Assembly (NCBI GenBank): GCA_015179045.1
Contig: WHUZ01000069.1
Coordinates: 124,001 to 188,000 of the forward strand
DNA length: 64,000 bases
Direction of reading: 5' to 3'
DNA from: Kalaharituber pfeilii
Lineage: Eukaryota > Ascomycota > Pezizomycetes > Pezizales > Pezizaceae
The first letter of the stretch is position 1. Every line of letters starts with the position of its first letter. Made by a program: the position numbers and the translations under genes. The notes beneath the pieces were generated by a model. It worked only from the letters and a program-made list of their open reading frames with translations. It searched no databases and was not told where the DNA came from. Shown here in pieces: positions 16,584-59,477 of the stretch.

Positions 16584-19376
16584 TGGAACCCGAATTGAGC
16601 CGCCTACCCCTCTTGCCCAAGGTATCGAACTGGCCCTTGCTGATGAACATCCCCTCGCGCTAGAGCCTTCCTTAACTCTTCACAAGATTCCCTCCAATGC
16701 ATGCCCCCATCCCAATAGCACACTCGGATATTAACTCTATTTGCTGTGGGCGGATAATCACGATTACCATATTGTGTGGGCGAATAATACGGCTTAGGTT
16801 GTAGGGCCTTTATCTGTGCGATTTGCTCTTCGATTTGCCGTTGTGCTTTCGCTTAATAGCGCCTAAGCTCCTTCATCATTTTCGAGATTTCGTCGACGTC
16901 CTTATCCTTACCCACGATCCCGGAAGTTGCCTTGCTAGTTTCGGACTGCGAATGCGATTTCGGTTGCAATTGCGGCTGAAAATACGTTCTGGAACCGTTC
17001 TGAGCTTCGTTTTCGGCCAGGCGTTTAACCTTCCACAACTTCATCTGCGAGTCGTCTTTGGTGCATAACCCTAGTGCCTCCTTTTTCAATGTTGCCCAAA
17101 CCTGCTTCGTTGTGGTTGTATCCTCCATATCAATTTCACACTTCTTACACAGCTTATCACCTAGCTTATCGGAAAATGCCTGCAGGAAGAGAAAGACTCG
17201 GGTATGCTCATTGATAATTCCTTTCGCAAACAGCTGATCTGCCCTCTCCGCAAAATCGAAGATAAAAGCTCGGAATTGCGAAGGCGTTGGGTCCAAGGTG
17301 TCACGCATTGTGCGAGCGATTGATTGAAGGTATGCTTCAGTATACTTACGCTGCTCTGTATCGTCGTCCTTAAATTCCTCAAGGAACTCATTCTTGAACT
17401 CGTTCCAGCTGGTAATCTGCTTGAAGTGAACCATGGTTTTGATATACTTGCTAACAATCTTGTCGCAGTATACTGTGTTCTACCGGGATATTGCGCATTT
17501 TCGGGTGACTAATAAATGACTTGTCAAAATTCAACGACTTGTTCAATTGACTTCAAAATAAATACAATGCATCTAGATACATGTAGAAACCTATTTCAGA
17601 CCTCGTTTAAGCACACAGAAATTTTTCAGGTGGGGCCATTTTGGTAACATACCTATTTGGGAAGGACAGACACTTGAAGGTCTAACTTTTGCAGAATCAT
17701 TTCCTAAGTCTCACAGCCATTTGGTAGATGCTCTTGTGGGTCTAGATGGTGGGTGCGAAGTAGGAAAGAGCTGGCGTCTTGTGGGCGGAAGTGGTGTCTG
17801 AACAACTATAGTATCCAAAGTGGTATCTGAGGCAGCATCAGATGTTTCAGAGTCATCTGTATCAGACCAGGCTTCTGGTGACTCTGAAGCAATTCTAGCT
17901 TGTTTGCGAGTACGTTGGGATGGTTGACGCTTGTTTTTGGCCTGTGGTTGCTGTGACTTCGGCTTGGATGTTCTTTTTTTTTTTCGGTTTTTGCTTCTTT
18001 TGCTCTTCCATCTCTAGCTGCTTCCTGAGCCTGATAATATCCTTTCCAGTGATGGGCCCAATGACTGGAAGACGTCTTTGGTCCTTTGTCTCGAGTTTTT
18101 TACCACGCCTCTTGAGTTTCATATTGATATCTCAACCTCAGTCATTGCTCCTAATGCTGCTGATGAGAGTGTAAGAAATGACTTTTTGATTTCTGACTGA
18201 GAGGCATTTGGAAGTCGTTGAATGAAGCGAATGGTACGACTTTTGAGTGCTCTTGGTGTTCTAGGAGTATAGACACTATGGGAGGATATTGGACGTACTG
18301 GAGAGAGGTATTTTTCGATAGCTGTATGTTGCATATTGCCAAGGGGGATTCTATAGTTGCTAGGATATATTCTAGTCCCTGCCCATCTAGACTTGATATT
18401 CTGCTCCGTAAAGGCACGCTCTCGAGCTGTCTTAAGCATTGGCTAAAAATTTCCTTTTCTAATAATATCAAAATTCTCTCTAGTAAAGGTATCCACCTCT
18501 TGACTATAGGCATGTTGTAGAGGTGCAAATAACCCAACATCTAAAGGCTGTAGAAGATGCGTTGAGTGTGGGGGAAGACAAAACACTAACATATCATGCT
18601 CCAGACACCATGAAAGAAATTCCCAAGAGCAATGAGAGGCATGTCCATCTAGAAACAATACAAGACGATGAGTTTTTTTGGACAATTTCGTTGCTAGGGG
18701 GTAAAAATGATTCTGCAAATAGTCTTGACCGATTTTATTATCTGTCCATCCCTTAGGTGAGTGGTTAAATCTTGCTTCCTTATCCTCTGGAGTTATACCT
18801 GCATACCATCCTGCTACATGAGCTTTTCCTTTATATTTCATATATGCAGGTAATACTTTACCGGCTGCATTAATTGTCTCAATATCTGTAATTATTTCTC
18901 TGTTTCCATCCACCCTCTCTCGCACATGCTTTCTCCCAGCTCTACAAATCACTTTGCATTTGCTTCCTCTTCCTAACATAAACCCTTTCTCATCCATATT
19001 CCATATATTCTCTGCGAGTATCTTATTCCTTGCTATCACTTTTTGCGCTGCCTGAATAAACCTTTTTACCACTTCCGGATTATTTGCTACTGCCCGCTGG
19101 CGCTCCTGAGCTGTTGCTAACTTCTGTTTGACCTCTGGGTGTCTTTTCACAAACCTGCGTACCCAATTTTTACCTAAATCTTGCTTAATACCCCCCTTAC
19201 ATTTAATTATTAAACTAGTAGCAATCTCTCTCAAAGTTTCTATCTCAATAGGAAATCCCATATCATCCATTCGCTCAAGATATCTTACCACTGCCTTCTC
19301 CTGCTCTTTATCTAGGTGCTGCTGACTCTCATGACTAATGTCACAGCCCACGCCCTACAGTCTCCGCACATCAAGC

Positions 19377-21969: not shown

Positions 21970-22840
21970 ACGAAATGTCCCCTATCGCAAAATGTATGTC
22001 CTTGGAGAGGTGGCGAAAAGGTAGTCTCATACCAAGCCCCTAGGCGAAAAGGTAATATATTGGTGCACTAGAATAATTTACAAATGGTATTTGGGCGGGG
22101 GCACAGGAGGGCTCTTGAAAATAAAGAATACAAGCAATATGCCTGGGTCCGATGCCAACTTGTTTATATCAGTAAGAAGAAAATTGCGGTTTCCAGAGAA
22201 TCAATTGTAATGCATGTTCAAGTGAGATGACTTGCCTGCCGGCTCACCGTCGCCTCTTCGGGGGTAGCAAGATTCGTCCGGAACACTCTCATGATGCCAG
22301 TTTCTAAGCAAGTCGCCACGAGAATTTTCTGCCATGAGTCCGACCAAAGTTGCGGAATGAAGGTAAATACACCTCCCAAGGCCGAAGACACAATATCACT
22401 GCACCTAGCATAATCAGGAATTTTCGGAAGTTGTTTCGGGCTACCGGTGGTTCCGTATGCAAAGCAAGATCCAAATTTTTTCAGCAAATAGAGGAGTGTT
22501 TTTGTTCTTTTTCCACGTTTATTGGATATAAATATCTTTAGAATTGAGTGTTGTCGGAAATATACAGTCTTAAGCTCAGGTTTCCGGATTTCGGAAGGGA
22601 AATTCTCAAGATTTGGCACCTTGCTAAGGCAACATATTTGTTTCCCAAACCCTGAAAAAGTTCGTGGTTTGTAAAACCTCTCTATTGCAAGGGTACAGTA
22701 CGAGCTACTTAACTGACTCAGAATTCACTTCGAAGCTAATTTATAATAGCAGCTCATGAGGCAATTCCCATTCATCTACGAATTCTTGTATCAATTACAA
22801 TGAAACTGCATGCTGTAAGAACCCCTATATCCCTTCACGC
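21970..22840. other. Region with no supported gene
   Basis: Short overlapping frames with no recognisable domain and no repeat seen. Confidence 0.4.
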
Positions 22841-23705: not shown

Positions 23706-24386
23706 CGGGTCATAGCATTTCAATGGAAAATTGTTAGTGGATTCCAACATTCGACAATCACCTGTTAAGACTCGCTAAGCAGATCATGCTGCAATGTATA
23801 AGATGATCAAGTTTGATCACGCCATTTCCCCAGAGTTGAAAGCGGAAGAACTGACCGAGAACAATTCCACCACGAAATCTTTCCTGCGTACAATGCATGT
23901 CGTCAGTGACCAACATTTTGCTGACCTATCGCGTGATGGCTGCGCACCAAGTTAGAGAATACATCTTTCATTCTGACTTGTGGTACCGGTAGGTGGTGCA
24001 CGCTCCTTTGGTTCCCGAACGAATGGGTGCATAATTAGCCTCTCCTACATTTCCTCCCACCCTTTCCTTTGACGTCACAGGAGGACCTGTGGCTGCTTTT
24101 AAAAGTTGTGTCCACTCGCATGTCATGCATAAGGTTGCGTCATTCTGAGCTGCATTGAGTAGAATCCACTTCGCCTGATAACAACTGCAACGCAGCGCAC
24201 TCACGTTACTACTTGGCATTGGTGGCCTTACCTGTCACATGGCGAATTTCTCAGACACTCCTCTGGCGCTTCTATCTGTTCACACCGTTCGAAGTCGCAG
24301 ATATAGTTTCAACCGCCTGGACAAGTGAACTTACTGCGTCCCGTCATTGCGCAGCAGATGGGCAGCACTCATAACGTACTGAAAAA
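23706..24386. other. Upstream region of the MYND gene
   Basis: No supported gene. It probably contains the promoter of the MYND-domain gene that starts at 24387. Confidence 0.4.
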
Positions 24387-25736
24387 ATGTCAGATTTCAA
24401 TGCTTACGAGGCCTGGATGACGGAGTGCAACGTATGCGCTCAAGAGGCCAGCCATTTCTGCCCGCGATGCGAGAAAGTCTGGTACTGCAGTCAGGAGTGC
24501 CAGAGATATGACTGGCAAGTTCACAGACACCTTTGCTCCTCTGATTCACAACTTTACCCCGTGAAAGACCCGACAAAGCCCTCCAGACGAGCAATCTACT
24601 TCCCAGAGCACGGCGGCAGACCTACGTTTGTTGAAGTTCCGTTTGAGACGTGGGATGAGGGCTACGATATATCGTTGCATTGGGAAAGACTAGGAAACGA
24701 ACCAATTTTCCGCAAAGAGTGGATTGTGCAAAATATCGAAGTGGACAAAAATCCAATAACCGGACGCGACTTGGGGTATCAGCTGTTGGTAGGTATCAAA
24801 GACGACGCCATGCAGGATCCCAAGTACAAACCCAACAAATGTATAAAGGGGCTCAATTTTACCAGTTCTCATATTCCACATTCGTGGCCTGGCCCACTCA
24901 GGGCGGTCAAAGTAGCCCCAAAGTCACCGATGCTAGATTCTCATCCCCGTTATCTAGATATTGAAATTGGAGATTTGAGGCACTTGGTGGACTTCTTTCT
25001 GGTTTATGGCCTGAGTGGAGCCGCATTGGAAGAGACTGTTTTCCAGCTCCGCATGGGACTTCCAGCATTGCCAGAGGAACTTGATGAAGACTTACTCGGC
25101 GAAAGCTGGGATTCTGCCCCCGCCTCGCCATCATCGGCTTTACATAGTCCAACACCTCAACTCCCTACGATTTGGGGCATAACACTGTACTGCAAGGGCG
25201 ACCAAGCGCAACTGAACGTTCCGCCGTACGATGTGAAGGAAATTACCTTGCAAGAGGCGCAAGTCCACAATCTGCAAAATTGGCCCGTTTTCGACATCAC
25301 CCAGCTTATCGGGCTCCCCATCCAGTATCGTCGAATCCCCACGAGCATTCGCAACTTGGAGAATCCATTTTGGTCCCCGGACAACGAAGCTGCACTCTTA
25401 CTCCAGTTAGATCCAAAGACCGGGGAGGTTCCGGAGCGGTGGAAAAAGGATTCTGGTACATGGGTAATTGTGCGGCAGGATGGGCGGCAGTTGTATCCAG
25501 AGCATCTCGAGGCGTTAGTTGCTTTCGTTAAGCAGCATCTAGTCCCATTATTTGAGGAATGGAGAGGAAAAGATACCAATGCTTCGGTGGGAACAAGGAA
25601 GGTGGACGGGGAAATGACGAAAGAGAGGTTCTTAGAGTGGTTTGAGGGGTACAGAAGAGAGAAACTGCAGAGGTTGAAAGACGAAGAGGGCTTTATTTCG
25701 GAGAAGTGGATCTCTCCATTTGATGTGCCTACATGA
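24387..25736 (+). CDS. MYND-type zinc finger protein
   Basis: A single-exon frame of 449 aa from ATG (MSDFNAYEAWM). Residues about 15-51 form a MYND zinc finger: CNVCAQEASHFCPRCEKVWY, then CSQECQRYDWQVHRHLC, with all seven Cys and the final His-Cys present. MYND fingers usually bind short proline-containing peptides in partner proteins. The rest (about 400 aa) has no SET or other catalytic domain that I can recognise. It resembles the large fungal class with an N-terminal MYND finger and a long uncharacterised body. It is one of the few uninterrupted host genes here. Partner and process are unknown. Confidence 0.88.
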   Translation: MSDFNAYEAWMTECNVCAQEASHFCPRCEKVWYCSQECQRYDWQVHRHLCSSDSQLYPVKDPTKPSRRAIYFPEHGGRPTFVEVPFETWDEGYDISLHWERLGNEPIFRKEWIVQNIEVDKNPITGRDLGYQLLVGIKDDAMQDPKYKPNKCIKGLNFTSSHIPHSWPGPLRAVKVAPKSPMLDSHPRYLDIEIGDLRHLVDFFLVYGLSGAALEETVFQLRMGLPALPEELDEDLLGESWDSAPASPSSALHSPTPQLPTIWGITLYCKGDQAQLNVPPYDVKEITLQEAQVHNLQNWPVFDITQLIGLPIQYRRIPTSIRNLENPFWSPDNEAALLLQLDPKTGEVPERWKKDSGTWVIVRQDGRQLYPEHLEALVAFVKQHLVPLFEEWRGKDTNASVGTRKVDGEMTKERFLEWFEGYRREKLQRLKDEEGFISEKWISPFDVPT

Positions 25737-34095: not shown

Positions 34096-34104
34096 GTGTG
34101 GTAA

Positions 34105-34181
34105 TGTTCTCGTGCCCAGACTCTCTTGGCACGCTTAAATAATTCGCGAAAGGAAGAGAGTCTGGTACGAAACATCTCCGA
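34105..34181 (+). repeat. Left terminal inverted repeat, 77 bp
   Basis: It matches 43713-43789 in inverse orientation without mismatch. It includes the motif CATCTCCGA at its inner edge, which recurs inside the element. Two CCGGAGATG motifs follow at 34217 and 34238. Confidence 0.95.
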
Positions 34182-34414
34182 AATGGGGGGCTCCTCAGCT
34201 CCGGCTGCCAAGAGGGCCGGAGATGCTAGCGCATGTTCCGGAGATGCTAGCGTGTTCCTTAGTGACACTTGGCGCCAGAAGTGTTCATTTATATTGTGAT
34301 ATGAGGTGGTATGCTCACAATACTTGTCTCCACCACCCTGTTCATGCATATATATCTGACTAGTCCACCATTGGAATACACTCAGCAATACCTATCGTCA
34401 TTCCTGTACAGACC

Positions 34415-36894
34415 ATGCCTCGGAATTTTAGAGCTAGCTCTATGAATTCCTTACGCAAACCGGCAAAGAACTGTTCTCGCGCCCAAGTTAAGCTAGTTGA
34501 GGCGGATGGTTCGGTTAATGTGGAATGTGTATTTGAACCATTTACACCAAAGGATATGGAAAAGTGGCTTCCGAAAGCAGTATTGGAGCTGGTAGTTGCA
34601 TCTGCAGTAAGGCACCTGACATGACATTTCTGAGCTTAACGTCTCACAAGTATACAGACAGTTGAAGAGTGGAGAGCGAAAATGAGATGGATGGTGGCAA
34701 TGATCTTTTTCAAGATCAGAAATTTCAATAAATTCTTCCTCAATGAATTACTCCGAGTTTGCAAGACTAGCAGAGATAATATTGTTGATACTGCGGGAGA
34801 GAAAGAGACTATTCTAGGGTACCTACATGACTTGCAGAATTCAATTTGTGAGGTACTTGGTCGTCTTGCCAAAGCTTGGATTGCAGGACCGGCAGGACAA
34901 GTGTATGTGTCGATAGTGGAGAATAACAGGTACGTCATATATTCGGGTGCTCGCGAGCCAGGGTCGTACTTGAGCAGGATTAGAAATTAAAAGAGCTCTA
35001 ATGGGAGTGAGTATACAGGAAAGTAAAAGGAAAAATGGCTAGGCCGAATATTCATGCCATTGAGGAATTCTTTGGATTTACGGCCGCTGATTACCGTGCA
35101 ATTTGGGGACCAATTGCATATACTGTGGATCCAATTTTTTGGCACCCCATCGTTGGATCGAATAGAAAGTATTACGACGAATTGAGAGTTAGCACCTTGG
35201 CAATCATTGTGCGCTTGATTCATATCCTGACTACAGGAAGAGTACATCAACGAGTGTTAAGTGTCAGTGCCAGAATTAAGGTACTAGATGCAGCTACTTT
35301 TTCTGATGATGTTAACTTGGATTGGCCGGTTCTGAAGCCGAAAGCAGAGAGACCAAATGGGACTAATGCATGGGAACAAGAGGGTGAATCCTATCCAAGG
35401 CATTTGGAGTTCCCAGAGATAGGAAAGTTGTGGGAGAAATTTGACAAGCAGGAAACGATTGAGGTAGAAAGTTACCAGGAGGAAGCAGATGAAGTAGCTG
35501 AAGAAGAAGAAGAGGAGGAGGAGGAGGAGGAGGAGGAGGAGGAGGAAACGCATGTTGATCTCTCACGCGAAGAAAAGCAAGAAGAATGTGAGATGGGTAG
35601 TCAGGGATCGGTTGTGGGAGACAATGGCGGGGATAGGGAGACAAGTACTGAGGCTGTAGAAGGAAAAGCCATGGAAGAAGAAATAGTGGATCTGACCACT
35701 AGAGCTAGTAATGAAGAGAATGGGGCAAGTGAAGGAGAGTTCGGTGAACCTGAAAAGTGTATCAAGAAAGACGAGGAGGACAGTGAGGTCGAAGTTACTA
35801 TGGACGACATTCCGGCGGTTCCCATGGAACATGGTTCAGAATTCGCGGCAGATCTGGGGGAGGAAGCTATGGACGAAGATGACATTAGTGGGTGGGTGAC
35901 TTTGGAACAATACGCAGAGATCGACCGCGAGAATAGGGAAGACAGGAGGATTGATGATGACATTATTGAAATGTTGAGACCAAGCATGAGTGTTTCAGAG
36001 CTGTCTAGGTGCGGCCAAGGCGCAAAGATTAATGGCTAGGAGAAGTGCTAACTAATGGGCTGCGGTTGCTTTAGTTATGTTACCGATGAGGCAGTCAGAA
36101 TTTCCTTGATGGGACCCTTGGGTTTGGCGAGATGGGCGACATGTGCGGCAGAGAGGATTGTCCAAAGGAATGATCAATTATGTTTCCTAATTGACAGGAA
36201 ATTGGCTCGGAGCAACAATGTGATTGAGCGGTTGAATGAGAGCACTGAGGAAGCAATTAGGTCAATCGAAAGAATGGCTGTGCTTAGGGAGGAGCTAGAT
36301 GGCAAAGTTAAGGAAGTGGCGCTTGCGAGACAGAGAAATCAGGAAGCGAAAGCCCGGATGGCTGGAACGAGGGCCCCTACGGCGATTAAGCCATCAGCGG
36401 TGCCCACGACTTTTACGCGTAGCAAGCCAGCGGGTTTGACTAGAAGCCGGGCCTTGCCAGCTGGGGTATTGGCCCGTGGGGGAGGACTAGGGCGAGGAGT
36501 AACTCAGAGTTCGGTTAAGGTGACGAAAGGGGGAGGAGATAAGGCTATTGGTGTTCGCGTCCCGTCTGGAGGGTCTAGGCCGGATTCTGGGCAGTTGAAT
36601 GTGAAATCTAGGTCTGAAACAGCACAGCCAGAGGCGGCAGAGGTAGGTTATATCAGTTGTCCTGCCCAAAGATTTTGGACTGATAGTGTGGGTCTGGGAT
36701 AGGACAAGAAGGAGGTTGGTAGGGCAACTCCGGGTAAAGATATCAAACTCAACGTTACTCCGGAGGAAACGAGGAGCTCTATTGCAGCTAAGGATAGTAA
36801 CGCCAGTCCGTCTGCGGTTGTACCAATGAAGCGTAAAATGTTGGATGAAGTGATTGATGATGAAAATGATCTCATTCCAGGCGGATCGAAGTAA
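34415..36894 (+). CDS. Element-encoded acidic protein, unknown function (737 aa)
   Basis: Five exons in my model: 34415-34606, 34658-34929, 35019-36008, 36075-36642 and 36703-36894. Every junction has GT..AG and keeps the frame; the intron before exon 4 has a clear GCTAAC branch site. The first third has several predicted helical stretches (TVEEWRAKMRWMVAMIFFKI, YHDLQNSICEVLGRLAKAW-type). The middle (around residues 280-460) is very acidic, with a run of about 18 Glu, and poor in hydrophobic residues. Exon 4 has a coiled-coil-like helix (NNVIERLNESTEEAIRSIER) and a basic Gly/Arg/Ser-rich tail. I do not recognise a domain. The intact frame inside a TIR element suggests a role in its movement or regulation, possibly as a DNA- or chromatin-contacting accessory protein. 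That is inference. Confidence 0.7.
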
Positions 36895-37323
36895 TGGCGG
36901 TGATGTCGCACGCGACCGCTAGTATCGCTGGGCTCATTCCCGAATATTCCTGACACTTCCACATAGTTCCTGATATTTCTTTGGTCTTCTACATGTTTCC
37001 CTCGTTTGCTTGTTTGCTCGTTTGTTTGCTTGAAGGAATTTGGGACCGGCAGCTCTCTATAACAGAGGCCCTCCCTCCCCTCTCTCTTGACTCTGCACGC
37101 AACAACTTGTATATAGCTTTCAATACATCTACCACTCTGTACCATATAGCGCCGACTGCCTCTGCCTCTGCCTGCTGTGAATCCGCCCCGACGCCTGCCG
37201 CCCGCCCCGTACCCGGATCCCGTACCCTGGACCCCCTGAGACCCCGTATCCCGACCCCGACCCGGCCCGACCGATTTATTACACCCGTTCATTACAAATG
37301 GCTCGATCAAGTTCAATATATCA

Positions 37324-37381
37324 CCCTGCCATGGCTTAGCGCTGCAAGCGGGGTTACGCGATGTTAAAAACAAAGAAAAAA
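37324..37381 (+). mobile_element. Micro-retroposon (A family) inside the 9.7-kb element
   Basis: CCCTGCCATGGCTTAGCGCT, then GCGGGGTTACGCGATGTT and an A-rich tail. AAGTTCAATATATCA (15 bp) is duplicated (37309-37323 and 37382-37396). Confidence 0.93.
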
Positions 37382-37466
37382 AAGTTCAATATATCAATGT
37401 GACGGCGTGCGCCCGCCCTACGGTTGCGGTGAACCCGCGGGTGGTGATCGGTACAGGGCGGTCGGT

Positions 37467-37830
37467 ACAAGCACCGACATACTAATTCATCTCCGAATTG
37501 ACCTGAAAACACCGGAGATGGAAACTAAGGGTACCATTTACTTTTACATATGCTAAAGATGTTACATACCATCTCCGAAGTCATTCTGAGTAACACTTCT
37601 CATGCTGTTGGGAAGTTTGCGTGGTTGAGGCAGGCGGGTACGTAAAGAGGTGAGTGACAAGCACCGACATACTAATTCATCTCCGAATTGACCTGAAAAC
37701 ACCGGAGATGGAAACCAAGGGTGTCATTTACTTTTACATATGCTAAAGATCTTACATACCATCTCCGAGGTCATTCTGGGTAACACTTCCCATGCTTTTG
37801 GGAAGTTTGCGTGGTTGAGGGAGGCGGGCT
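37467..37830 (+). repeat. Two-copy direct repeat upstream of the helicase gene
   Basis: The segment beginning ACAAGCACCGACATACTAAT at 37467 is repeated at 37657 with about 95 percent identity over roughly 160 bp. Each copy has three motifs of the CATCTCCGA/CCGGAGATG type. The position in the helicase upstream region suggests tandem binding sites. Confidence 0.88.
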
Positions 37831-37997
37831 CGTCTGGACTGTGTAAAGAGGTGAGTTGAACATGATCTTGGCATTTGCCTTGGCGCTTGGTTACGGTACT
37901 CAACGTGTAAACCTCAGTATAGTAGAAGATTGCACCATGGACCAAAATCATCTCCGAAGACGGCACCACTGAGCGAAAGCGTACCGGAGATAGCGAG

Positions 37998-40372
37998 ATG
38001 TCCTTACAGGGGCATACTATTGATGAAATACTAGCAGAGGTCTCCTCCGGAAGGTTGTTTGTTGAATCGGAGATCAAGGAAGTTGGGGACTTACGAATGC
38101 AAATTCGTGAAGTTGCTAGGCAGACTGCCCTGAGCCGGGACTTGCCACTCAAAGTTCTAGCATGGCAGGTGGAAGTTGCTGCACGCATGATGGAAGGCAA
38201 GGATCAGCTATGCATTGCAAAGACTGGTGATGGAAAGTCATATTGTTTTGTGCTCGCATCCTTATATGAGAAGTGTAAAAGTATCCTAGTCGTTTCACCG
38301 TTGATATCGCTGATGGAGGATCAGGTAAGTGAAGCTCCGCAGAAGAGCAATATGTACCGGAGATGAAAACATTTATATTAATATGGCATAATAGGTGAAA
38401 CATGCTGAGAAATTTGGTTTAAAGGCTGTTGCAATCACGTCGGAGAACGTGAGAGCATCTCCGGAGATTTTGCCCAAAGCAATTTCTGGATTTTACCAGC
38501 TCATCTATGTAGCTCCAGAAGTCCTTATTATGGAAAACGACATCATGGTTCAAATGGTACGCTCTAAAGCCTTTAAGGCAAAATTAATGGGCATTGTAAT
38601 AGATGAAGTGCATTTATGCCACCAATGGTCAGTGGCAATTAATTTGTTAAGTGCTACAAGAAGGCTTCTAACTGATCTGTAGGCGGACCTTCCGCCCACA
38701 ATATACCGGTATCGGCTTACTGCGAGTTTTCTTCAGAGGAATACCCTTCTTAGGACTCAGTGCAACAATGCCTGCGCATGTTCGAGGATTTGTTCACAAA
38801 AGCCTAAGATTACCTCAATCCTGTGAACTGCTCCGGAGAAGTGTCGATAGGCCAAACATATGCATAATGGTATGCCCAATCATGTCCACCATTGAGTCTT
38901 TTGATGACTTAGCCTTTATAATTCCCCGTAACATACGGAAGCCCGAGGATATACCTAAAACCATGGTTTTCACTGATAGTCTTCGAGAGACTTGCCGCAT
39001 AACAACAAATCTCTCAAATCGAGTTCCGAAAAACATTGCAGATATCGGCCTCCATCTAGTTCTTGAATATTCGACTGCGATAACTTATGATCGTCGGGCA
39101 TATAATCTGGAGCTTTTTGCAAGTGGCGAATGCCGTGTTCTAGTTTGCACCGAAGCATGTGGTATGGGAGTCAACATCCCAGATGTTGAGAGAGTCATCC
39201 AATGGAGGATAAGTACTACTACCAATTTGAGTAATATATATCAACGTTTGGGGCGCGCGGCTCGTAAACCCAATGTCCAAGGGCTTGGAATCATTTTCCA
39301 TACAAATTCAGCCCTCATCACACCCCAACATTCCCCCGAAGCTCAAATCTACCGTCGTTCGTGGAATCATCCTCGTTATCATGAAGTCCTTACAGACATC
39401 ATCAAATTTGACATGGGCTTAGTCTCCTGTACTGCAGGTGCGGGGAAGAAGCGGAAAATAGATGGATCGACCGAAAGCCACACGGAAATCTTTCAGCCGC
39501 AGGAAGAATTGGAAAATGGCCAACTTGGAAACAGAAACATCCGCAGCAAGGCACTACCACTGACATGCCGTGCGTCACTATCCGTGGTGAATACCACTGA
39601 ATGTCGACGACGTGTGATCCTCAGATACTTTGCAGAGTCACCCCCTCCTTTGCAATATGAATATCCATGTTGTGATCGTTGCATGGGTGACAACATACCC
39701 CCAGAGATACTACGATTAATGCCGCCAATTCAGAAAGCTTCGGCGGAACAGGTGGTAATGACTAAACCACTCCGCCGTGGAATCCCGAAGCTATCGTCTG
39801 AATATCAAGCTGCCGTTCGTAGCGAACTCCGTGCGATTCGCACACGCTTGTGGTTTGAGCAAGGGGGGGCCCATCGATTCTGTCCTTATCCAGCAAGCAC
39901 ATTAATGCCTGACAAGGATATCAACATTATGGCTTGTGCGAAACAAATTAAGACCCCGGAAAATGTTCGCGAAGCCTTGCGACGCAAAGAATCACGTTTT
40001 GAGAGCTCTTTGCAGAAAAAAATGTATGATCACGTCTTTGACACTATAGTAACATTGTCGCGAGATTATCCCGACACTCCGGCCCTGACGTCCCCAGCGC
40101 CGACTTTGGACCGAGCGCCCGCAAACCCTGAATGCATCCCTCAAGTCGATTTTTCAAACATTAACGGGACGCCTTATCGTACCCAGCATGCTGAGAATAG
40201 GGCCCTACAGGAAATATCTCCTAATGCCAATGCCGCACATGCTCCACCCGCATTCTCCACTTTATCCAACCTCCACTCCAGAGACAGCGGAAAACCAGAT
40301 CGGATAAGGGCAAACCAAGGGGTCCTAGGGTCCAACAAAAGGACTGATGCTATATCCTTGTATAAGTACTGA
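37998..40372 (+). CDS. RecQ-like superfamily 2 helicase, element-encoded (749 aa)
   Basis: Exons 37998-38324, 38395-38627 and 38683-40372 in my model; the second intron (55 bp) starts GTCAGT and ends CTAACTGATCTGTAG. Domains in order: N-terminal region; helicase core with motif I IAKTGDGKSYCF, Ia VVSPLISLMEDQV, motif II DEVHLCHQW, RecQ-type FRPQYTGIGLLR and motif III GLSATMP; C-terminal core with MVFTDSLRETCR, motif V VCTEACGMGVNIPDVERVIQ and motif VI YQRLGRAARKP. A possible zinc site (YPCCDRCMGDN) follows, then an unstructured tail. ATP-dependent 3'-5' DNA unwinding is the expected activity. The frame is uninterrupted. Telomere-linked RecQ helicases of fungi are an alternative relation, but the flanking TIRs and target duplication place this copy in a mobile element. 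Confidence 0.88.
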
Positions 40373-40474
40373 CATACCCATATTGCATAGTGATGTTACA
40401 TTCCTGCTCAATTTATGTAGTCATTTCTGCTCCTTTACTCATATCTGCTCGTTTCCGCATCCTCACCCTCTCCT

Positions 40475-43400
40475 TCACTGCGTACCTTCATCTTCCGAAT
40501 CTACATAGTCCACCAAGTCTTCTAGCTCATGATCTTCCATTTCTAATTCGAAATGATCCCCATCCCGCCATGGTTCCCTTCTATCTGTTTGACTATACAG
40601 AATATCCCCATAATCAAGGTCATCATCTTCCACATCCACATCATCTCTTTGCTCTCGCTGGTCCAACGCACCTCCTGTGGCCTGTTCGTCTTCCATTGTC
40701 AAATCTTGATTGCCATCGCCTGATCCCTCCTGCGCTCTATACTCTAACTCCGCTTCAATCTCCTCTCGGAGGTAATCATCAATCTCTTCATCCGAATCAT
40801 CTCCAATCAATCCACCTAGACGTTCCTCAATTATTTTATCTAGGAAAGGAGTGTTCATGATTTTTCGCGCCCCCGAAGCAAATAAGTCCAGTGCTTGTTT
40901 CACTTCCACTGGATTGTGAGTCGAGCCTGCAATATACCGACCTTTTTTGTACTCCAGGATCTCGCCTTGCAACAGGATATCCACCACCAATTCTATATCA
41001 TTTTTATCTTCCACTACCCCATGTTTAGTCCCATAGTGCGGGACGTGTGCTCCATTATTCATAGCCTTTTTTACCTCATTGAACATAAACGCATTTTGAG
41101 ATACTGAATTCAGAAAAAAATCCTTGCTCTGCCATGCGCTTCTGGGGTTGTGCTGATCTTTGACCCTCCGAACAACGATTTCATTCACTTTATCGATGCC
41201 CATATACTTTCCAGGTCTACCGCTCAAGTTCAGCAGGATGTTGTTCAACCACTCATATCGCATATGTGGTGTCCACACTACCGCATTATCCAATAGAAGA
41301 TTCGTTGTCGCCTTAGCATAATGACCCTTACCACTTCCGGCAAACCATACAGCAAGCGGCTCTATATCCTTCAACACCGCTCCCGAATCTCCTACACTGT
41401 TCAGTTATCAGCCACCAGAGGCGAACACAAACATTCATCAGCAGCACTCACCTAATATTATAGTGGAAATCTCTTACTACCAAATAATGCTGCAAATACA
41501 GCACGAAATTTTCATAGACCACGTCCCGGTTCTCAAGCGCCACACGCTTCAAGAACGCCTTTTTATTCAACTCATCCCCAACACGCTCCGTTTTCTTTTT
41601 TGTTTTCATCATTTCTGCCCAGGATTCCCGTGCTATATTCTCTGCCCTTTCCCGGAGGATGCTGACTGTCCGCGGTGTACATAGCCGTCGTACTACTGCC
41701 TGGCATACATTCACATAATCTAGGCCCTCCCCCAACTTTGCTCGCAGTTCACCTATATTTTCAACCTAGGTCACCAGATTAGCTTCTGTGCCGCTCATGG
41801 TCAAATCTACTCTCGTGCCCAGACTGTGCCCCAATCCGGGTACAAGAACACCAAATATAACTTACTCCGGCTTCCGTGCAAATTGCTGCCAGTATAAATC
41901 CTTCTCCGCATGTCCGTGTAAAACGCCGACAGGCATTATACTCCGGCATCTCTCCATTAATCCCCTTCAATCCCAATACATGTTTCAAATGGCATAATGA
42001 CCCCGGATCCATTCCATCCTCACGACCCCAATGCGCTCGAAACAGCATATCCTCTGCTGCCATCTCCATATGGAATAATCCCTCATGCCGAACCAGATGG
42101 TTATGCCGATTATGAACAAACTCCCTCATCCGCAATTGCTTTAGGGTTTCAACTTTCATCAGGGTCCCCAAATCTCCTGCATGTACTACTGCACGACCAA
42201 GGAATGATTCCACTGTCATTTCTGTTTCTCGATGTAATGCATCCAGGATTTGAGCCGTTCCTTCGATACTAGTTTCATCCAATTCTAGAGATGAAAGAGC
42301 ATGTACTTCAAATTTCATGAGTGGAATCTGATAAATTTTCTCGAACTCCGGTCGTGCACTATATGCACGCTTATCTTTCTTCGCTTGACTTTCTTTGGCT
42401 TTCAGCACATCCCCGAAGAACTTCCACAAGACATCCGACAAATGGACCACCATACGGTATGGCATATATTCGGCATAAGATTGCATTGATAGCAGCCATA
42501 ACCGATCAATACCCTCATAGTTTATCACCGTTTTTTTGAGAAGCTTCATATCCATACCTGGTGGGCTTCCTTGAGCTGATTTGCTCATTAATTCGGCATA
42601 AACCTCCTCGTATTCAGAACCGGCTTCTGGTTTGGGAATATGTAGGAACCATAATGCACATGCAGTATATTGTGTTAACCCCTTTCGATTAGCAATACTT
42701 TGTTCTGTCTTGTTTTGAGCAATTGTCATATTATCCCACATCCATCCAAAAGGCTCCCCCTATAACTCTATTAGGTCAATGATTATCCATGCCCGAGCTC
42801 ATTCACATACCTCCCAAATTCTTTTCCTTATAAGTTTCAAGTTAGCTGATCCCATTGACTTCATAGACTCGCAGATTGAGCTGTAGGAGACGCTTAGTCC
42901 GATATGGTTTAAGAAGCCGATTGCCTGTCTGGAAACTGTATTTGCCTGAAGATAGTAACCCACTAATGTCTGTAGGCGATTGCTTCTCCTGGATCGTGCG
43001 AACCCCATCATGCATAACACCACCGTACATATTACCTCTCGATTTCTATTACTATCGTCTTTTCCATCTCGTCCACTCCCGTTCCCCTGGCATACCGCCT
43101 GTACAATCCCGGAGAGCCGTGGGCAGCACTCTTCAAAGTTTTGCTTGAGTTTCTCAAAGGTTACTGTTTTCGCAACTTCGGGAGTTATATTTCCTACTCC
43201 CATTCTCGACTCTCCATTACTGCAATATGCACGGAGCTCTGATTCTAGAACAACATGAACAAGTTTCCACAAAGATAATCCCATCCGTTGTTTCAACTCA
43301 ATCACACTCCTGCTTGCATTCAAACTCCGCTTCTTAGGGTCAAACTCCATATGCGGTAGCATTGCCTCAAATACTCGCTGGAAGCCATCCTTTGCAAAGA

Positions 43401-43566
43401 ATACTCCTGCCTTCTGCTTCAAGCGTGGAGTTGAACTCTTCATAACACGTTCAAAAAATGTTGCTATATCCATTCCATGGTCTCGAATACTGGCCAAGAT
43501 GTTCCAGACTGCTGGTTCCCAATCTTCTGCTGTGCTGGTGGAGTCGCCGGGCAGTTCTGTATCCAT
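40475..43566 (-). CDS. DUF6589-like protein, candidate transposase (961 aa)
   Basis: Exons on the minus strand: 43566-42811, 42759-41866, 41765-41454 region (donor after 41452) and 41396-40475; the lengths sum to 962 codons with stop. The start ATG gives MDTELPGDSTSTAEDWEPAV. The N-terminal 250 aa are alpha-rich and unrecognised. The second exon has FGWMWDNMTIAQNKTEQSIA, HAGDLGTLMKVETLKQLRM and HEGLFHMEMAAEDMLFRAHW, which resemble the conserved blocks of fungal DUF6589 proteins. The Asp of WDNM, the Asp of AGDLG and the Glu of HEGLF are candidates for a metal-binding DDE triad; this is inference. The C-terminus is very acidic. The gene is convergent with the helicase gene, ending about 100 bp from it. 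It is the most likely transposase because neither other gene looks like a recombinase. Confidence 0.72.
41766..41865 (-). promoter_or_regulatory. Intron of the DUF6589-like gene containing a TIR end motif
   Basis: TCTCGTGCCCAGACT at 41811-41825 is identical to bases 4-18 of the element's terminal repeat (34108-34122). It lies within an intron, so protein coding does not explain it. It may be a binding site for the element's own transposase or a remnant of an internal insertion. Confidence 0.7.
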
Positions 43567-43712
43567 TTTCAATTGTCCTTTAAGTATGTTTTGTTTCTTG
43601 TTTGGATACAGTCGGCATGTACTATGGCATGAGACTAAAATAGCGCCATGCAGCGCTATTTTAGTGTCATGCGCTACCCAGCTCCGGGACCGGAGCAAAA
43701 GTAACCTCGACC

Positions 43713-43789
43713 TCGGAGATGTTTCGTACCAGACTCTCTTCCTTTCGCGAATTATTTAAGCGTGCCAAGAGAGTCTGGGCACGAGAACA
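43713..43789 (-). repeat. Right terminal inverted repeat, 77 bp
   Basis: Exact inverse of 34105-34181. It ends ..GGGCACGAGAACA, followed by GTGTGGTAA. Confidence 0.95.
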
Positions 43790-43798
43790 GTGTGGTAA

Positions 43799-48419: not shown

Positions 48420-49612
48420 GCACTTCCACCATGGATCGAACCAATCGATTCGCGGCATTGGGCAGCCTGGCACCGAAAAACACATCTTCGGGTGCCAAGA
48501 CAACACTTGCCAGAAGTACTGTCTCGAGGCCCCACTGCTCCAATCAATCATTGAAAGACTTGGTGGAGTTAATATGACTTCTATGCTTGAGGCAGTGGGA
48601 GATATCATTATTCATATCCAGAAATGTGTAGAAGACCTTATGAAAAGACCAAACTTCGAGCCAACAGACTTGTTCCTAGGCTATCTCGGACACGCACACC
48701 AGCGCATAGATTTACTCGCAGCAGCAGCGAAAGGGGAACGTTGCAAGAACTATGCTGCCACACAGCGAAGTTATAGGCAAAAGGAAGGGGAAACACAGAC
48801 CGAGCCAGAGACAATACCTCCGCTGTCATATGCAGCAATAGTCTCTCAAAGCATTCCACCAAATACACCCCCAGCACAAAAAACCAACCCACCTCCAGCA
48901 GCACCACCGAAAAACCGAACAAGGTCCACCGCTTCTCAATCCAAAAACGCAGCAAGGGGGTCCAGTACCAACCCCCCCAAGCAGAACAAGAAGCCTCCAA
49001 CATCATCTCCGAAAGCAAGAACATCCCAGAAAGAAAGGCTCCCGCAATCTGGCCGGGCAGTTGTGGTGCATGGCATAGCGGTGACGAAGAAACTTGGGAA
49101 AGTAAGAGAGTGGATGGAAAAGGCGAACCCATGGATGGGGAAGATGGTTGCGGCAAGATGGTTGGTGAGAAAAGAAAGGAGGGAGGGAAAGAAGACTAGC
49201 TCGATTGTTATCTACCTGGAGGGGGAGATAGAATCAGATAGTCAAACACCAGCGAAGGTACGGTTATCAGGCAAATGGTACCACTCGTGCTTGTATGACT
49301 GGGACAGAATAACGAAGGTGGACAGAAAGGGGAAGGGGAGGGATGTGGAGGAGATGGATATGACTGCTTGATTCTCTAGGGGGATATTTGAGTATTCGTG
49401 CTTAATTGTTCCCTTGGGGGATTGGGCTTTCGCTTTGTGTTTCCTCCACATCACCGAAGTCATAGTATCGTTGTTTGTTTTTACAGGGGACAATTTTGTA
49501 TGTAGTTGCACAGGTGCCTGTCTCCGGGCCAGAAGGACTTCGGTCCAGGGACCCTGCCATGGCGAACAGCTGCAAGTGGGGTTATGTGAAATAAAAAAAA
49601 AAAAAAAAAAAA
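48420..49612 (+). mobile_element. ORF1-only LINE derivative (half-LINE), A family
   Basis: An ORF1-like protein gene is followed directly by a 3' UTR of about 240 bp that ends CCCTGCCATGGCGAACAGCT, GGGGTTATGTGAAAT and 21 A (49592-49612). The same ORF1-end-to-tail layout is present at 11053-11462, so the absence of reverse transcriptase is shared. The 5' end and a target duplication were not identified. Confidence 0.75.
48574..49371 (+). CDS. LINE ORF1-like protein (265 aa or slightly longer)
   Basis: ATG at 48574, with open frame extending upstream (CQDNTCQKYCLEAPLLQSII), so the true start is probably further 5'. The N-terminal part is helical (LEAVGDIIIHIQKCVEDLMK). A Pro/Ser/Lys-rich linker (residues about 80-150: TIPPLSYAAIVSQSIPPNTP and PPKNRTRSTASQSKN) precedes a C-terminal globular part (GRAVVVHGIAVTKKLGKVRE, NPWMGKMVAARWLVRKERR, KWYHSCLYDWDRITKVDRKG) with the look of the RNA-binding ORF1 domain of Tad-like LINEs. 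No zinc knuckles are visible. Expected role: binding element RNA. Confidence 0.65.
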   Translation: MTSMLEAVGDIIIHIQKCVEDLMKRPNFEPTDLFLGYLGHAHQRIDLLAAAAKGERCKNYAATQRSYRQKEGETQTEPETIPPLSYAAIVSQSIPPNTPPAQKTNPPPAAPPKNRTRSTASQSKNAARGSSTNPPKQNKKPPTSSPKARTSQKERLPQSGRAVVVHGIAVTKKLGKVREWMEKANPWMGKMVAARWLVRKERREGKKTSSIVIYLEGEIESDSQTPAKVRLSGKWYHSCLYDWDRITKVDRKGKGRDVEEMDMTA

Positions 49613-51255
49613 AGAGGCGCCTTCGTATGTGGACGATATAGCAGTGACGGTCCTAGACTGGCATGGCTATTTGGACATGGGGAGACTGAGAGAGAGAGAG
49701 TGAAAAAGGAGGTGAAAGCAGTAGCAGAAGAGGATCAGATTCTACTGGAGGAGTCGAAGTGGGAAATGATAACGTTTGGCGTGGGGAAGAGGCAGAAGAC
49801 AGAGGGGGAGTTCCTAAAGTGGCTGGGGGTTATTTTTGATGAAAACTTAACCTTCACGGCACACTGGAAGAACAGGGTAGGCAGGACGAGGAGTCTGGCA
49901 GGAGCACTGGCGGGGTTAGGAAACAGGGACTGGGGTATGAGCCCGAGGAGCTGGAGGCAAGTATACACGGGCATGATAAGAGCGGTGGCGATGTGGGGAA
50001 GCGAAATCGGATGGCGAGGTCAGAAGGAGTGGAGAAAGGAGGTAGAACGGTTGCAGCTCCGAGTCCTGAAGAAGGCAGCTCGGGGAGGGAGAGGAGCAGG
50101 GGCGAAGGGAGTGAATGCGGTGTGTGGGGTGGAGGTGGTGGAGATGGTCATGGATGTGGCGCAGGCAAGAGCAATCATCTGGGAGGTAGAGTCACCGTTA
50201 GAGCTGGCGGAGCTGTGCACGGGGGACTTTAAAGAAGGTAATGAGGAGGTAGAAGAAGAGGCGAGAAATTGGAGAGACTGGGAGGTGCAGTGGGCACTGG
50301 CGGAGGAGGATGGGTATGAAACAGTGTTGGACCGCTGGCAGGGCCAGTGGGCGCGATTCTCAGAAGAAGAGGAGGAGATCTCATGGGGAGGAGGATGTGA
50401 GGTGGTAGGGGTGGAGACTGCGGAGAGGCTGGGGAGGAAGAAGGGAGGCCGAGAGGAATGGGAGACCTCGATCGAGGAGGCTGGAAGGGAGAGAGCCGTC
50501 TTCTTCTCAGATAGCAGTAAGATCGAGGATAGCAAGGTGGAAGCAGGTGTGTGGGGGAGGTCGGCAGTGGTAGCGGAGGTGGTGGGAAAAACAGTGACGG
50601 TTTTTGACGGGGAGGTGAGGGGAGTGAGAAGAGCACTGGAGAGTGCACCGGAGGTACCGGCCCTGATCTGTCTAGATTCAGAAGCCGCTGTTATGGCGAT
50701 TCAGAAGGCAGGCAGGGAGGGAAAGGGAAAGACGGAGGATGTGAGAAGGGTGGTGAATGCAGTGGCGAGGAGAAAGAGGAAGGGGGGGGATGCGAAACTG
50801 TTGTGGGTAAAAGCTCATATCGGAATCGCAGGTAATGAGAAGGCGGATGAGTGGGCAAAGAAGGGGACGGGGATGTAGGGTAAGGAGGTGGCCACTGGAA
50901 GTGCAGTGCACCAGAGAGTGAAAGCGTGGAGAAAGGAGAGGAGAGAAGTGGAGGGCTTTGGAAAGGGAAGGTTATGGAGTGGAATAGGACAGCGGTGTCC
51001 AACTTCACTGCCATGCGCCTGGAGAGAGGAAGATGCGGGATGTGGTTGAAGAGGATGGGAGCGGCGGAATCGGAGAAGTGCAGCTGCGGGGAGGTCCAGA
51101 CGGGGGCGCACCTAGCCTTCCAGTGCAGTCAGCAGAGGTTTCGCTCAGAAGGCTTTAGAGAATGGGGGGATATGGAGAAGAACTGGAGAAGGGCAGCAGA
51201 GAATGGGGAGGAGTGGGATGAGTTAGAAAGGTTCTTCTCCGGGATCAGGTTTTAG
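49613..51255 (+). pseudogene. LINE reverse transcriptase C-terminus, RNase H and zinc motif, broken
   Basis: The YVDD segment (49619-49665) is out of frame with the rest because of a slip in a GA microsatellite near 49690. The main frame (49700-50878) includes FLKWLGVIFDENLTFTAHWK (RT thumb region), then type I RNase H: AVFFSDSSKIEDSKVEAGVW (first Asp), a Glu near EVRGVRRALE, LICLDSEAAVMAIQK (Asp) and LLWVKAHIGIAGNEKADEWA (His, Asp). A TAG stop at 50876-50878 and a frameshift separate the C-terminal part (50926-51255), with CSCGEVQTGAHLAFQC as zinc motif. Non-functional, but all RNase H residues remain. Confidence 0.85.
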
Positions 51256-53774: not shown

Positions 53775-56700
53775 TCACACAAATAAGGCATTGATCTTTC
53801 TCATCACGGAGCCACCGTCTTCCCTTAGGACCAAGAAGTCGCTGCTCGAATCTGTTCTAAGGACCCCAACCTTTTTGAGAACCTCGAGTTCAATAGCACT
53901 CTCATTCCCATCCTCTGACCTACATCGCCCATTTTTCCTACCAAGCTGTTTGCATACCACCCAATTGTTATAGGTTTGCTCTGGGTTGAGGATGGCAAGG
54001 GTGAATTGTCGATCATCCGTTTCAATTGGCGCTTGTGACAGGTACGGGCAATAGAATCCGAAAACCTCACCCCCTAACTTAACTTCATATTCATTTACTT
54101 CGCTTGATTTGTGGAGGAGAGCATGAGAAATTGCCCAGACGTCACAGAGGAAAATATGTTCAGTACTAATAGTCCCGTCCTCAGTATCAATCAACTCTGG
54201 GGTTCCGCGATTTTGAGGCCATTCTGTAGGGGTGTGCTCGTAGTGCTGGTCACGTTCTGGCCATTCCATCATTTGCTTCCAGGTCGGGAACCATTGCTGT
54301 TCTGTCCGCCGGTAAGGAAAGTCGAACAGGATCTCAATCTTTTTTCCGAATGGAAGCACATGAAAACATTGCCTCCAGGCAGTTTCGTCGTCTATTTTCT
54401 CGTCGTAAGTTGGTAGCTGAGTTGCACGCAGGAGGTAGAACAGTCCAGCCACTTTATCTGTAGGTTTTGTTGCACAGCGACTGGCCATTTCCCTCACGAG
54501 TTCATACAGATTGCAGCCGCCAGGGCTGTCTGCATCCATAGCAAGCTTCAGAACAGGACGAATGGCATCTCTCAGTGTAGTGACCTTCCCAGCAACTGTA
54601 CCCTTGGTGTTCAGGATAATACGCCCATTGCCGCGTGGCACTCCTCCATTAAACGTCCTGTTTTCCGTCCTGATCTCCTGCAAGGTCCAAGCTCGCCGTA
54701 GCCAATGACGGGGATCGTCCCAGCCTTCCTTACTAAATGGTGTTCCAAGGCCATTGAAATAACGCACCGTCTGCACTGCTGCACGGTATATATTACCAAT
54801 AGTAGGAACATCTATCTTCCATTCATCGTACTTGATTGTGTCGAGGGGAACGTTATTGTGAGTCAGTGTCTGGGGTGTAGAGGTGTCAGATTGCTGTCGG
54901 AGACAGAGAACATCAAGCCACACGTAGTTTGCGCCGATGGTGAGTAGCTCTCTCCGTAAGGACTCTATATCCACGCCTTTAGGAAGTGGGACAGGCCACT
55001 GGTATTGGTTAACAGAAGTCTTCACTGTCCTCATGTTACTAGTCCAGCTATGCGAGACTGCCCAGAAGGTAGGGCATCGAGTGCCATTATGTGGAACCTC
55101 AATGGAGTTGACTTCTGCATGCAACATTCGAAAGTCTACCACACGATTACTCTTCAGGTCCCAGATGCGGCGTGGCATTACGGCGTATGGTGACTTGATA
55201 AGATGCTGTCCAGTGCCGTCCCTGTAGATTGCATTTATGCGCTCTTGGTCAATTTCCTTCGCTTTCCTCAGCCACTGCGCCCTTTGCGCCACTACATTAA
55301 ATGCCTGTTCGTTGAAGTGTTTCCACCCAACATGGGCTGCGGCATATGCTAGACCAAAGTCAAAATTATGTGAAACAAAGTACTGAATATCATTTTGGAT
55401 CCAGCGTCGAAGACGTTCAGCGGAATCACTGCGGAGGCCGACAAGAGCTGTAAGGGCGGAAAAGAGCACTTTTTGGCTGATTTCCGTACAAGGAACGTCA
55501 GCAAGATCTGGGGTAAGGATGCCTCCAGCCCGGATTAGGCTCTGTAATTGTGCATTAGCGAGGAAGGGAGGTGAGGTATTGTTTCGTTTGACTTGTACTT
55601 CATGGCGAAGAGATGATGTTGGTAAATACCCGGCATATGGCATAGGAAAAGGGGGCGTCGCTTCATTGTTGCGATTGACATTCGCCATGGCGCTGGCCAG
55701 CAGCGCCTGCAGGCCCGGCTCGGCATTGCCGGACATTGCTGCATCCAGGGCAGTTGCGTACCCACCCAGAGGCGTTTGATACGGGCCACCTACGTAGAGA
55801 TCCCCCCCGGGCCAGCAGCAGCTTCACAACATCCGCATTTCCTTTAAATGCAGCCACACCCAGTGCAGTCCCGTGCTCACCACATACACCATTGACATCC
55901 GCCCCCTGGTCCAGCAGCAGCTTCACAACCTCTGCATTTCCTCTCAATGCAGCCACACCCAGTGCAGTCCCGTGCTCACCACATACACCATTGACATCCG
56001 CCCCCTGGTCCAGCAGTAGCTTCACAACCTCCGCATTTCCGCTGGATGCAGCCACACCTAGTGCAGTCCCATACTCACCACATTCAGCATTGATATCCGC
56101 CCCCCGGTCCAGCAGCAGCTTCACAACCCCCGCCTCTCCGCTATATGCAGCCACACCTAGTGCAGTCCCATACTCACCACCTACAGCATTGATATCCACC
56201 CCCCGGTCCAGCAGCAGCCTCACAACCTCCGCATTTCCTCTGGATGCAGCCACACCTAGTGCAGTCCCATACCAGCCACGTACAGCATTGATATCCGCCC
56301 CCCGGTCCAGCAGCAGCTTCACAACCTCCGCATTTCCTCTCAATGCAGCCACACCTAGTGCAGTCCCATACCTGCCACCTACAGCATCGATATCCGCCCC
56401 CCGGTCCAGCAGCAGCCTCACAACCTCTGCATTTGCACTGAATGCAGCCACACCTAGTGCAGTCCCATACCAGCCACGTACAGCATTGATATCCGCCCCC
56501 GGTCCAGCAGCAGCCTCACAACCTCTGCATTTTCACTGAATGCAGCCACACCTAGTGCAGTCCCATACCAGCCACGTACAGCATTGATATCCGCCCCCCG
56601 GTCCAGCAGCAGCTTCACAACCTCCGCATTTCCTCTCAATGCAGCCACACCCAGTGCAGTCCCGTGCTCACCACATACACCATTGACATCCGCCCCCTGG

Positions 56701-57379: not shown

Positions 57380-59259
57380 CCTTATTCCGTATAGTTGCCG
57401 ATTGTGGGTAGAAGAACCTAGGATATGTAGTAGTAATTGCGCCTAGTGATGTGGCCCTGACTCACTTCGGCACTAAGGGTCCTAGAAACAACAAAAGATT
57501 GTTTGTTGCACGCTTCTTAGTAGTGCGCAGACGTTTTAACCGCACGGTTTCGATTTATGACTTGGACATCGTTCAGATTTGCAGGGCGCCATTATTTATT
57601 CGTAGGGTGCCCATTTCCATCCTTTTCCTATCGCTCCCACCAACTTTCACGAATAGTAATTACATTGACCCATAAAAAAAGAAAAAACAGCCACGCTAGA
57701 GTCACCAGCTGGATGTTCAGCCTCGATAGGTGGAAAAATATCAAAGTGGGTTGTAAAATCTCAATACTTCACAATTTCCAATGACAATTGCGTACGATGG
57801 GTCAGAACAAACCGGGATAGATAAAAAATTCAAGCGGGCAAGTGGTGCGGGGAAATTGTTTACAAAAACTCAATGTCACTAGTGTACCCGTATCAGAAAC
57901 CTTTGACTGCATTTGTTGATCGACAAACATATATCTAATAATAGCATGTTCTAAAAAGAATCAAGAGCAACCACATGAAGAGCAACAGAGTTTAAGGTTA
58001 GGATTCGACAGTGATGTACTCTACAACACCCATGCATAACACTTCACCGACAGAATGATACCAGCGAATGGACTTGCAAGAACCGGCATTGAAATTGTGT
58101 ACCAAACCAGAATGACACCATGCTGCAGCAACCTTGCACGCTGGCCTGAGAACGCGCTAACATAGCTCAGCAGTAAAGAATTTGTGATGTAGAACACATG
58201 ATTCATCGTGTGGAACCATCGTAAATGAAAAATAAAGGTGCGCAGAATACCGATTATTGATAGGCTGTGATAACGATCGCTCTATTTTATTGATGCGAGT
58301 GCAATGTGCAGGAAGATAGGATGATGCCTGCGTGTCCATTCCTGTTGCCCGCTCTGTTCAGCAGCCGTATTCTCTGGCGTTGCATGGGCCCTCTCAGCTG
58401 ACCGTCTCTCACTGAGATTTTCAATTCACTCGCAGTACCGAACAGTTTGGTCGCTCGAAAATTCTTGCATTATACTCCAGTACTGGGGCGCCTCGGGACT
58501 GGGGTTGAGCTTCGCCAACATATCAGTGAGTACAGCGAACTGGAGGTGGCTAATTTCGTGCGTAGGCAAGCGACCAGAATGCCAGCTTCACTGGCCAGCA
58601 AAGTATATCGTGTCGTTATGCATGCGTGTTTGAATTTTGTGACTATCGCTTATATAGAGGAAGGCCATCTTGAGATGTATAGTGGGCCTTGGTAGCACAT
58701 TAGATAATAGTTTTTTATGCTATCATTAGTCAGAGTTACGGAGGGAGGTTCTTTATATCTGCTAGTGCCCCTTACCCTTACTTAAGGACAATCGTACTTC
58801 CCAATAAGAATCCAATCGTATCCAAATCCAATCTATTTATATGAGCTCTCCCTTCCTTGAATTGCAATTATTTTTTTGCTTATATATTTCCTTCGATTTC
58901 CCTCTACTCCATATGTGTACATAATAATTCACGTTTTCGACTATTACTGGAGAATTTTTCCTTCTTAGATACTAATAGGGGCCGAATACTCATAGGCTAG
59001 ATATCTTGTACCTTTATCTTACCAAGTGCGTTCATTTTGATATGGTCATTTGATTTTTCTTCGGAAATGTTGTAATAGCGCTATTGAGTACCTTGGGCTA
59101 CTGAATCTGCAAGTCTTTGCTTACAGAGTTGCATTGACTAGCGTCTGCATACATTGCAACTGGTACCCAAGGGTAAATGCAACTCGCGTACCATACCCTC
59201 CAAGTATCTTGTCCAGCTGCAGCTCCCTTAGCTCCACCTTGTGCACCCCGCTTTTGCCG
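57380..59259. other. Long region with no supported gene
   Basis: Probably includes the ankyrin-HET promoter. Remaining frames are short and without domains. Confidence 0.4.
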
Positions 59260-59292
59260 TCCTGCCATGGCGAAGAGCAAAAAAAAAAAAAA
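59260..59292 (+). mobile_element. Smallest micro-retroposon: 19 nt plus poly(A)
   Basis: TCCTGCCATGGCGAAGAGC plus 14 A, flanked by ACCCCGCTTTTGCCG (15 bp; 59245-59259 and 59293-59307). Only half of the 3' stem-loop is present. Confidence 0.9.
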
Positions 59293-59477
59293 ACCCCGCT
59301 TTTGCCGCGCAACTAACCACTAACGTGCCCGATGTGGTAACGATCTGCCCCCCTGTAACGATCCTACATTTTCACCCCCGCTTCGGCAACCTGCTCCTCA
59401 TCTTTCAACCGCGATTATCCTGCATATCTCAGCGAATTCTACATATTTTGAACTCGTTTTACCCGCAGTTAATAGCT

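Follow-up and report, generated by a model that had tools for sequence, protein, structure and literature searches.

A 9.7-kb insertion in the genome of the ascomycete Kalaharituber pfeilii encodes a predicted RecQ-like helicase, a protein of the Pfam family DUF6589 and a third conserved protein, and raises the questions of what moves it and why a mobile element would carry a helicase. The window in which it lies is the whole stretch of DNA analysed here, 64,000 nucleotides of contig WHUZ01000069.1 (positions 124,001 to 188,000 of the forward strand; assembly GCA_015179045.1), and coordinates given below without a further label are window positions. We think it quite probable that the insertion is a DNA transposon that moves autonomously by cut-and-paste, with the DUF6589 protein as its DDE-type transposase, and AcademH is the known kind to which it most likely belongs.

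The insertion and its three genes

The insertion spans 9,685 bp (34105-43789). Its first and last 77 bp (left terminal inverted repeat [TIR], 34105-34181, plus strand; right TIR, 43713-43789, minus strand) are perfectly complementary, as a first-pass annotation of this DNA had claimed, and complementarity is 90% when extended to 100 nt. The 9-bp target site duplication (TSD) in the same annotation was also recovered, with GTGTGGTAA flanking both element ends (34096-34104 and 43790-43798). When the flanks were joined with one copy of the 9-mer, 400 of 400 bases of the joined sequence aligned at 97% identity to an empty site, C327:197349-197748, which lies on the same contig as the element, some 30 kb further downstream. 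Among the matches listed, at least 37 further places span the empty junction at 83-88% identity, so the element has inserted into one copy of a dispersed repeat, and the empty site is a paralogue of the occupied one rather than an allele. The window element is a real, recently moved DNA transposon, in line with the recent movement suggested earlier, and is a copy that has open frames and for which an empty site is known.

Of the three spliced genes without internal stops that had been described, two stand as modelled, the DUF6589 gene with 961 aa and the helicase gene with 749 aa, and the third is open with uncertain splice sites; all models follow the GT-AG rule only and have no transcript support. 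This third gene, gene 1 (34415-36702, plus strand), yields open spliced models of up to 705 aa and has no known domain, the scanned pieces giving no Pfam or NCBIfam match. Its relatives occur in C298, C35, C2 and C57, and in C296 at 27% identity; there are 13 matches in all, most of them not near a DUF6589 match. We take the product of gene 1 for a conserved accessory protein.

The 749-aa protein on the plus strand (37998-40372; exons 37998-38324, 38395-38627 and 38683-40372) is, by its domain matches, a RecQ-like helicase: Pfam matches on this strand are DEAD and Helicase_C, with a RecQ zinc-binding match just under the cut-off, and the last exon has its best hits in NCBIfam and PDB among RecQ members, the NCBIfam ones lying below curated cut-offs. 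Upstream of this gene, a tandem repeat is present in two copies at 190-bp spacing (37467-37833), and the same repeat unit of ~190-200 bp forms arrays of varying copy number in non-autonomous relatives (L012, L013 and L016-L019; for example, L018:1492-2970). A ~60-bp stretch at 37323-37383 recurs in several other loci, including five places in L020, with an A-rich run at its end in at least one case, and is perhaps a dispersed short repeat.

The DUF6589 gene (40475-43566, minus strand; exons 43566-42811, 42759-41866, 41765-41452 and 41396-40475) was recognized from matches to PF20231 in two minus-strand ORFs. In an alignment of proteins from 11 of the 23 DUF6589 loci in the genome (the other 12, being short, broken or near-identical, were excluded), D448, H482 and E635 are invariant across all 11 rows, and D261 across 9 of 9. 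The motif contexts (WDN, GD and RDxxYEN) fit a DDE enzyme, with D261, D448 and E635 as a plausible catalytic triad. Five further acidic residues (D631, D723, E727, D788 and D825) are equally invariant and fold prediction gave no usable model (mean pLDDT of 36.8 for exon 2 by itself), so that the DDE assignment is one that we infer. A profile search with the alignment (A1) against PDB sequences gave no match, and three scans of viral contigs found no relative; a peptide-pheromone NCBIfam match in one DUF6589 relative (L029) was below the cut-off and was taken as chance. Comparison of the C2 and C57 relatives over 505 codons, with exon 1 left out, gave a dN/dS of 0.088 (dN 0.067, dS 0.76); the C314-C296 pair was saturated and left out. 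The invariant acidic residues, the low dN/dS and the co-occurrence with mobile ends support the earlier proposal of DUF6589 as the likely recombinase, and the protein is probably the element's transposase, which would give this unnamed Pfam family a probable function and link it with a helicase and with another conserved gene, gene 1.

Copies, relatives and class

The search for copies covered the 78-Mb genome in 360 contigs, and copy counts are lower bounds. Of 134 candidate TIR matches, 40 were scored, and 13 of these, the window's two included, are identical at 77 of 77 positions. Target duplications that are exact and at least 9 bp long occur at nine of the window family's 13 paired ends (C23 reads as 10 bp); the C344 pair has one mismatch, and no duplication was seen at the remaining three of the 13 examined (C357, C295 and C223b). 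C298 is the sole other full-length copy seen, with exons 98.3-100% identical to those of the window element and single-base indels in each of its helicase and DUF6589 genes. The search for multiple full-length copies thus turned up matching ends, different 9-bp flanks and an empty site, but only one further full-length copy. None of the 11 shorter paired copies has a DUF6589 match, and six of the 11 keep the start of the helicase (~136 first residues); ~105 first residues of DUF6589 are kept at one unpaired end (L023). A 43-nt unit at L024:208-250, with inverted TAGTCTCGTG tips and surrounding 9-bp repeats that differ by one mismatch, is possibly a very small derivative.

Beyond the window family, PF20231 gave 34 matches in the source genome, merging to 23 loci, and none in 14 control genomes. 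A RecQ match lies within 6 kb of 15 of these 23 loci, where 0.7% is expected per locus, and is convergent with DUF6589 in all 15; no such match lies near the remaining eight of the 23, and DUF6589 is missing from 28 of 43 RecQ loci. The three-gene set recurs in five other elements that were read at their ends (C298, C2, C57, C35 and C296), four of which have exact 9-bp duplications and the fifth one mismatch. The C2 (425047-434347), C57 (69524-81809) and C296 (305408-315023) elements each have an exact 9-bp duplication, and the one with the mismatch is C35 (449468-459619). Five TAGTCTCG-ended elements were examined, namely C296, a 3.2-kb element on C317 and three of ~130-140 bp, and the duplications are exact in four of the five, with none in C1. 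A family of helicase-carrying transposons, as claimed from the window alone, is therefore supported. The outcomes named in advance as refuting it, a lack of matching copies or a known transposase inside the element, are absent: ends that match occur with 9-bp flanks that differ, and no domain of a named transposase turned up inside.

The movement of shorter copies that lack DUF6589 indicates that the ends respond in trans, as they would if a transposase encoded elsewhere moved the unit and DUF6589, RecQ and gene 1 were passengers. Such an arrangement appears very improbable, since the same three genes occur in the same order in elements with diverged ends and 9-bp duplications, and the DUF6589 proteins of these elements are 25-41% identical.

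The primary AcademH paper is reportedly Kojima 2020. The nuclease of AcademX is XPG, and Kolobok elements target TTAA. XPG had no match in the 10 stop-to-stop ORFs of the window element at an E-value of 0.001, a feature that fits AcademH. A helicase inside a DNA transposon is not new: in the passages available from the published descriptions, AcademH combines a helicase with TSDs of 9 or 10 bp whereas AcademX carries a nuclease (PMC10045372), AcademH is present at low copy in Basidiomycota, Ascomycota and Mucoromycota (PMC10799480), and KolobokH, a DDD/E transposon of fungi, carries a RecQ helicase (PMC9587614). The window element resembles AcademH, as so described, in being a helicase-carrying DNA transposon with matching TSDs that occurs in fungi: the helicase is RecQ-like, and the duplications are exact at nine of 13 paired ends in the window family and in C2, C57 and C296, with one mismatch in C35. 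The element is likely of the AcademH kind, a likeness drawn from the description (helicase and TSD) and not from transposase sequence. It could instead belong to a separate superfamily with a RecQ helicase and 9-bp duplications, DUF6589 not being an Academ transposase. In the open-licence literature searched, we found no mention of DUF6589 and no statement linking it to transposons, and PF20231 appeared only in an unrelated physics paper, as would suit a separate group; yet the helicase, the 9-10 bp TSD and the presence in fungi all suit what the available text says of AcademH, and we regard a separate superfamily as unlikely.

Other known systems fit less well. Long TIRs and a 9-bp TSD are shared with Mutator-like elements, to which the first-pass annotation had compared the insertion, but the comparison is not supported at the transposase, no MULE domain being found in the 10 ORFs scanned. 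KolobokH shares the RecQ helicase but, in the available description, has it downstream of the transposase domain (PMC9587614), whereas here the two are separate, convergent genes. We rejected KolobokH on its TTAA target, against the varied 9-bp duplications found here, and Helitrons, by their definition, are ruled out by the TIRs and TSDs.

Hairpin ends, solo tips and a possible role for the helicase

The element ends compared number 11: both ends of the window element, C2, C57, C35 and C296, and a single end of C314. In all 11, a tip of approximately TRKTCTCGTRM is followed by a hairpin stem that starts at nucleotide 12 and runs CCAG...CTGG; in the window element, the left hairpin lies at 34116-34165, with 12-bp perfect arms, and the right one at 43729-43778. 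The perfect stem is 8-12 bp long at eight ends, and at the other three (C2 left, C57 left and C35 right) it is 4 bp followed by a mismatch, no longer than in shuffled tails. Folding z-scores range from -6.3 to -1.4. The arms vary between families yet match their own partners: past stem position six, none of 720 permutations among six distinct ends paired better than the arms left with their own partners, with the right-arm limits placed by hand at CTGG. In the window family, one stem pair has changed on both arms in the C124 and C79b copies, with a one-sided intermediate in C344; elsewhere, one-sided changes break or weaken stem pairs in C357b (L023), C2 (L026), C112 (L028) and C223b (L024). 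Two short derivatives, C24 and C295, are flanked by exact duplications yet have no such hairpin, so the hairpin may not be essential.

Solo 14-nt tips, which lack the rest of the TIR, were found at 104 places for TAGTCTCGTAACCAH (reversed-pattern control, 1), 52 for TGTTCTCGTGCCCAH (control, 0) and 20 for TAGTCTCGTGCCCAH (control, 0). Flanks were fetched for 20 of 100 listed TAGTCTCGTAACCAH places (every fifth), 20 of 52 TGTTCTCGTGCCCAH places and all 20 TAGTCTCGTGCCCAH places. Flanking 9-bp repeats, with up to one mismatch allowed, are present at 10 of 20 tips for TAGTCTCGTAACCAH, three of these representing one site copied inside related elements, six of 20 for TAGTCTCGTGCCCAH and none of 20 for TGTTCTCGTGCCCAH; cross-pairing controls gave 0 of 372 (TAGTCTCGTAACCAH) and 2 of 380 (TAGTCTCGTGCCCAH). 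The window element's own terminus is the one with 0 of 20 footprints. The retained tip is 13-14 nt long in 14 of the 16 flanked cases and 16 and 22 nt in the other two, lengths to be read with the fact that a 14-nt search pattern favours finding 14-nt pieces. A 19-nt fusion of both tips is present at five places (control, 0), one of which was seen between 9-bp repeats. A separate scan with 9-nt tips found exact repeats in 10 of 490 contexts, with a piece of 12-19 nt in seven of the 10, and shuffled motifs gave 0-7 in 11 of 12 cases and 28 in one; as the scan is no better than some shuffled motifs, we rely on the flanked solo-tip comparisons.

The solo 13-14-nt ends in the related families may be read as excision scars left by a long staggered cut, with the window element's terminus covered by extrapolation. 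They could also be very small insertions or remnants of one-ended events, uninformative about the cut, given that mostly one end is kept, that the window's own terminus has none and that the 9-nt-tip scan is weak taken alone. We consider this origin rather unlikely, as the 9-bp flanking repeats in two families stand well above the cross-pairings and the tip fusion was absent from its control. At window positions 22013-22052, exact 9-bp repeats (GCGAAAAGG) enclose a 22-nt piece that starts TAGTCTCATACCAAG, and the identical 22 nt lie between another, near-identical repeat pair in L025 near 8976; this piece is either a scar or a mini-element of a related family.

Read as excision scars, the solo ends invite comparison with the P element, which, in the available text, is cut with a 17-nt stagger inside the TIR, makes an 8-bp TSD and is repaired with the involvement of the Bloom helicase homologue (PMC7776569). 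A likeness may lie in a long staggered cut within the TIR, to be set beside footprints of 13-15 nt in the related families here and none at the window's own terminus; the TSD differs (8 bp there, 9 bp here), and the scanned ORFs of the element gave no match to a P-type transposase domain. In the mechanism that we envisage, DUF6589, acting as a DDE-type transposase, would cut and join the element ends. Going by the footprints of related families only, one strand would be cut at a point ~13-15 nt in from the element's end, close to the base of the subterminal hairpin, and the staggered cut would leave long single-stranded tails, as the 17-nt cut does in P elements. The RecQ helicase might then, speculatively, open the hairpin ends or help to process and repair the breaks. 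That DUF6589 cuts ~14 nt inside hairpin ends and the element's own RecQ opens the hairpins or steers repair, as an independent version of the P-element strategy, is a tentative proposal that we hold with less than even confidence; if true, an element-encoded helicase does here what the host Bloom helicase does for P. No description of hairpin ends or of excision-like solo-end scars was found in the literature searched. Together, the hairpin ends and the relatives' short scars hint at the excision mode of such elements, and turn the question of RecQ as cargo into one of end structure and staggered cutting.

Elsewhere in the window, two genes for unrelated transposases, with the domains DDE_1 and HTH_Tnp_Tc5, lie at 59232-61691 (plus strand) and 18446-19354 (minus strand), and an ORF with an RNase_H domain at 49595-50875 (plus strand) is possibly a retroelement piece. 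A MYND-finger ORF is located at 24375-25733 (plus strand), and an ORF at 53778-55823 (minus strand) has a HET match just under the curated cut-off.
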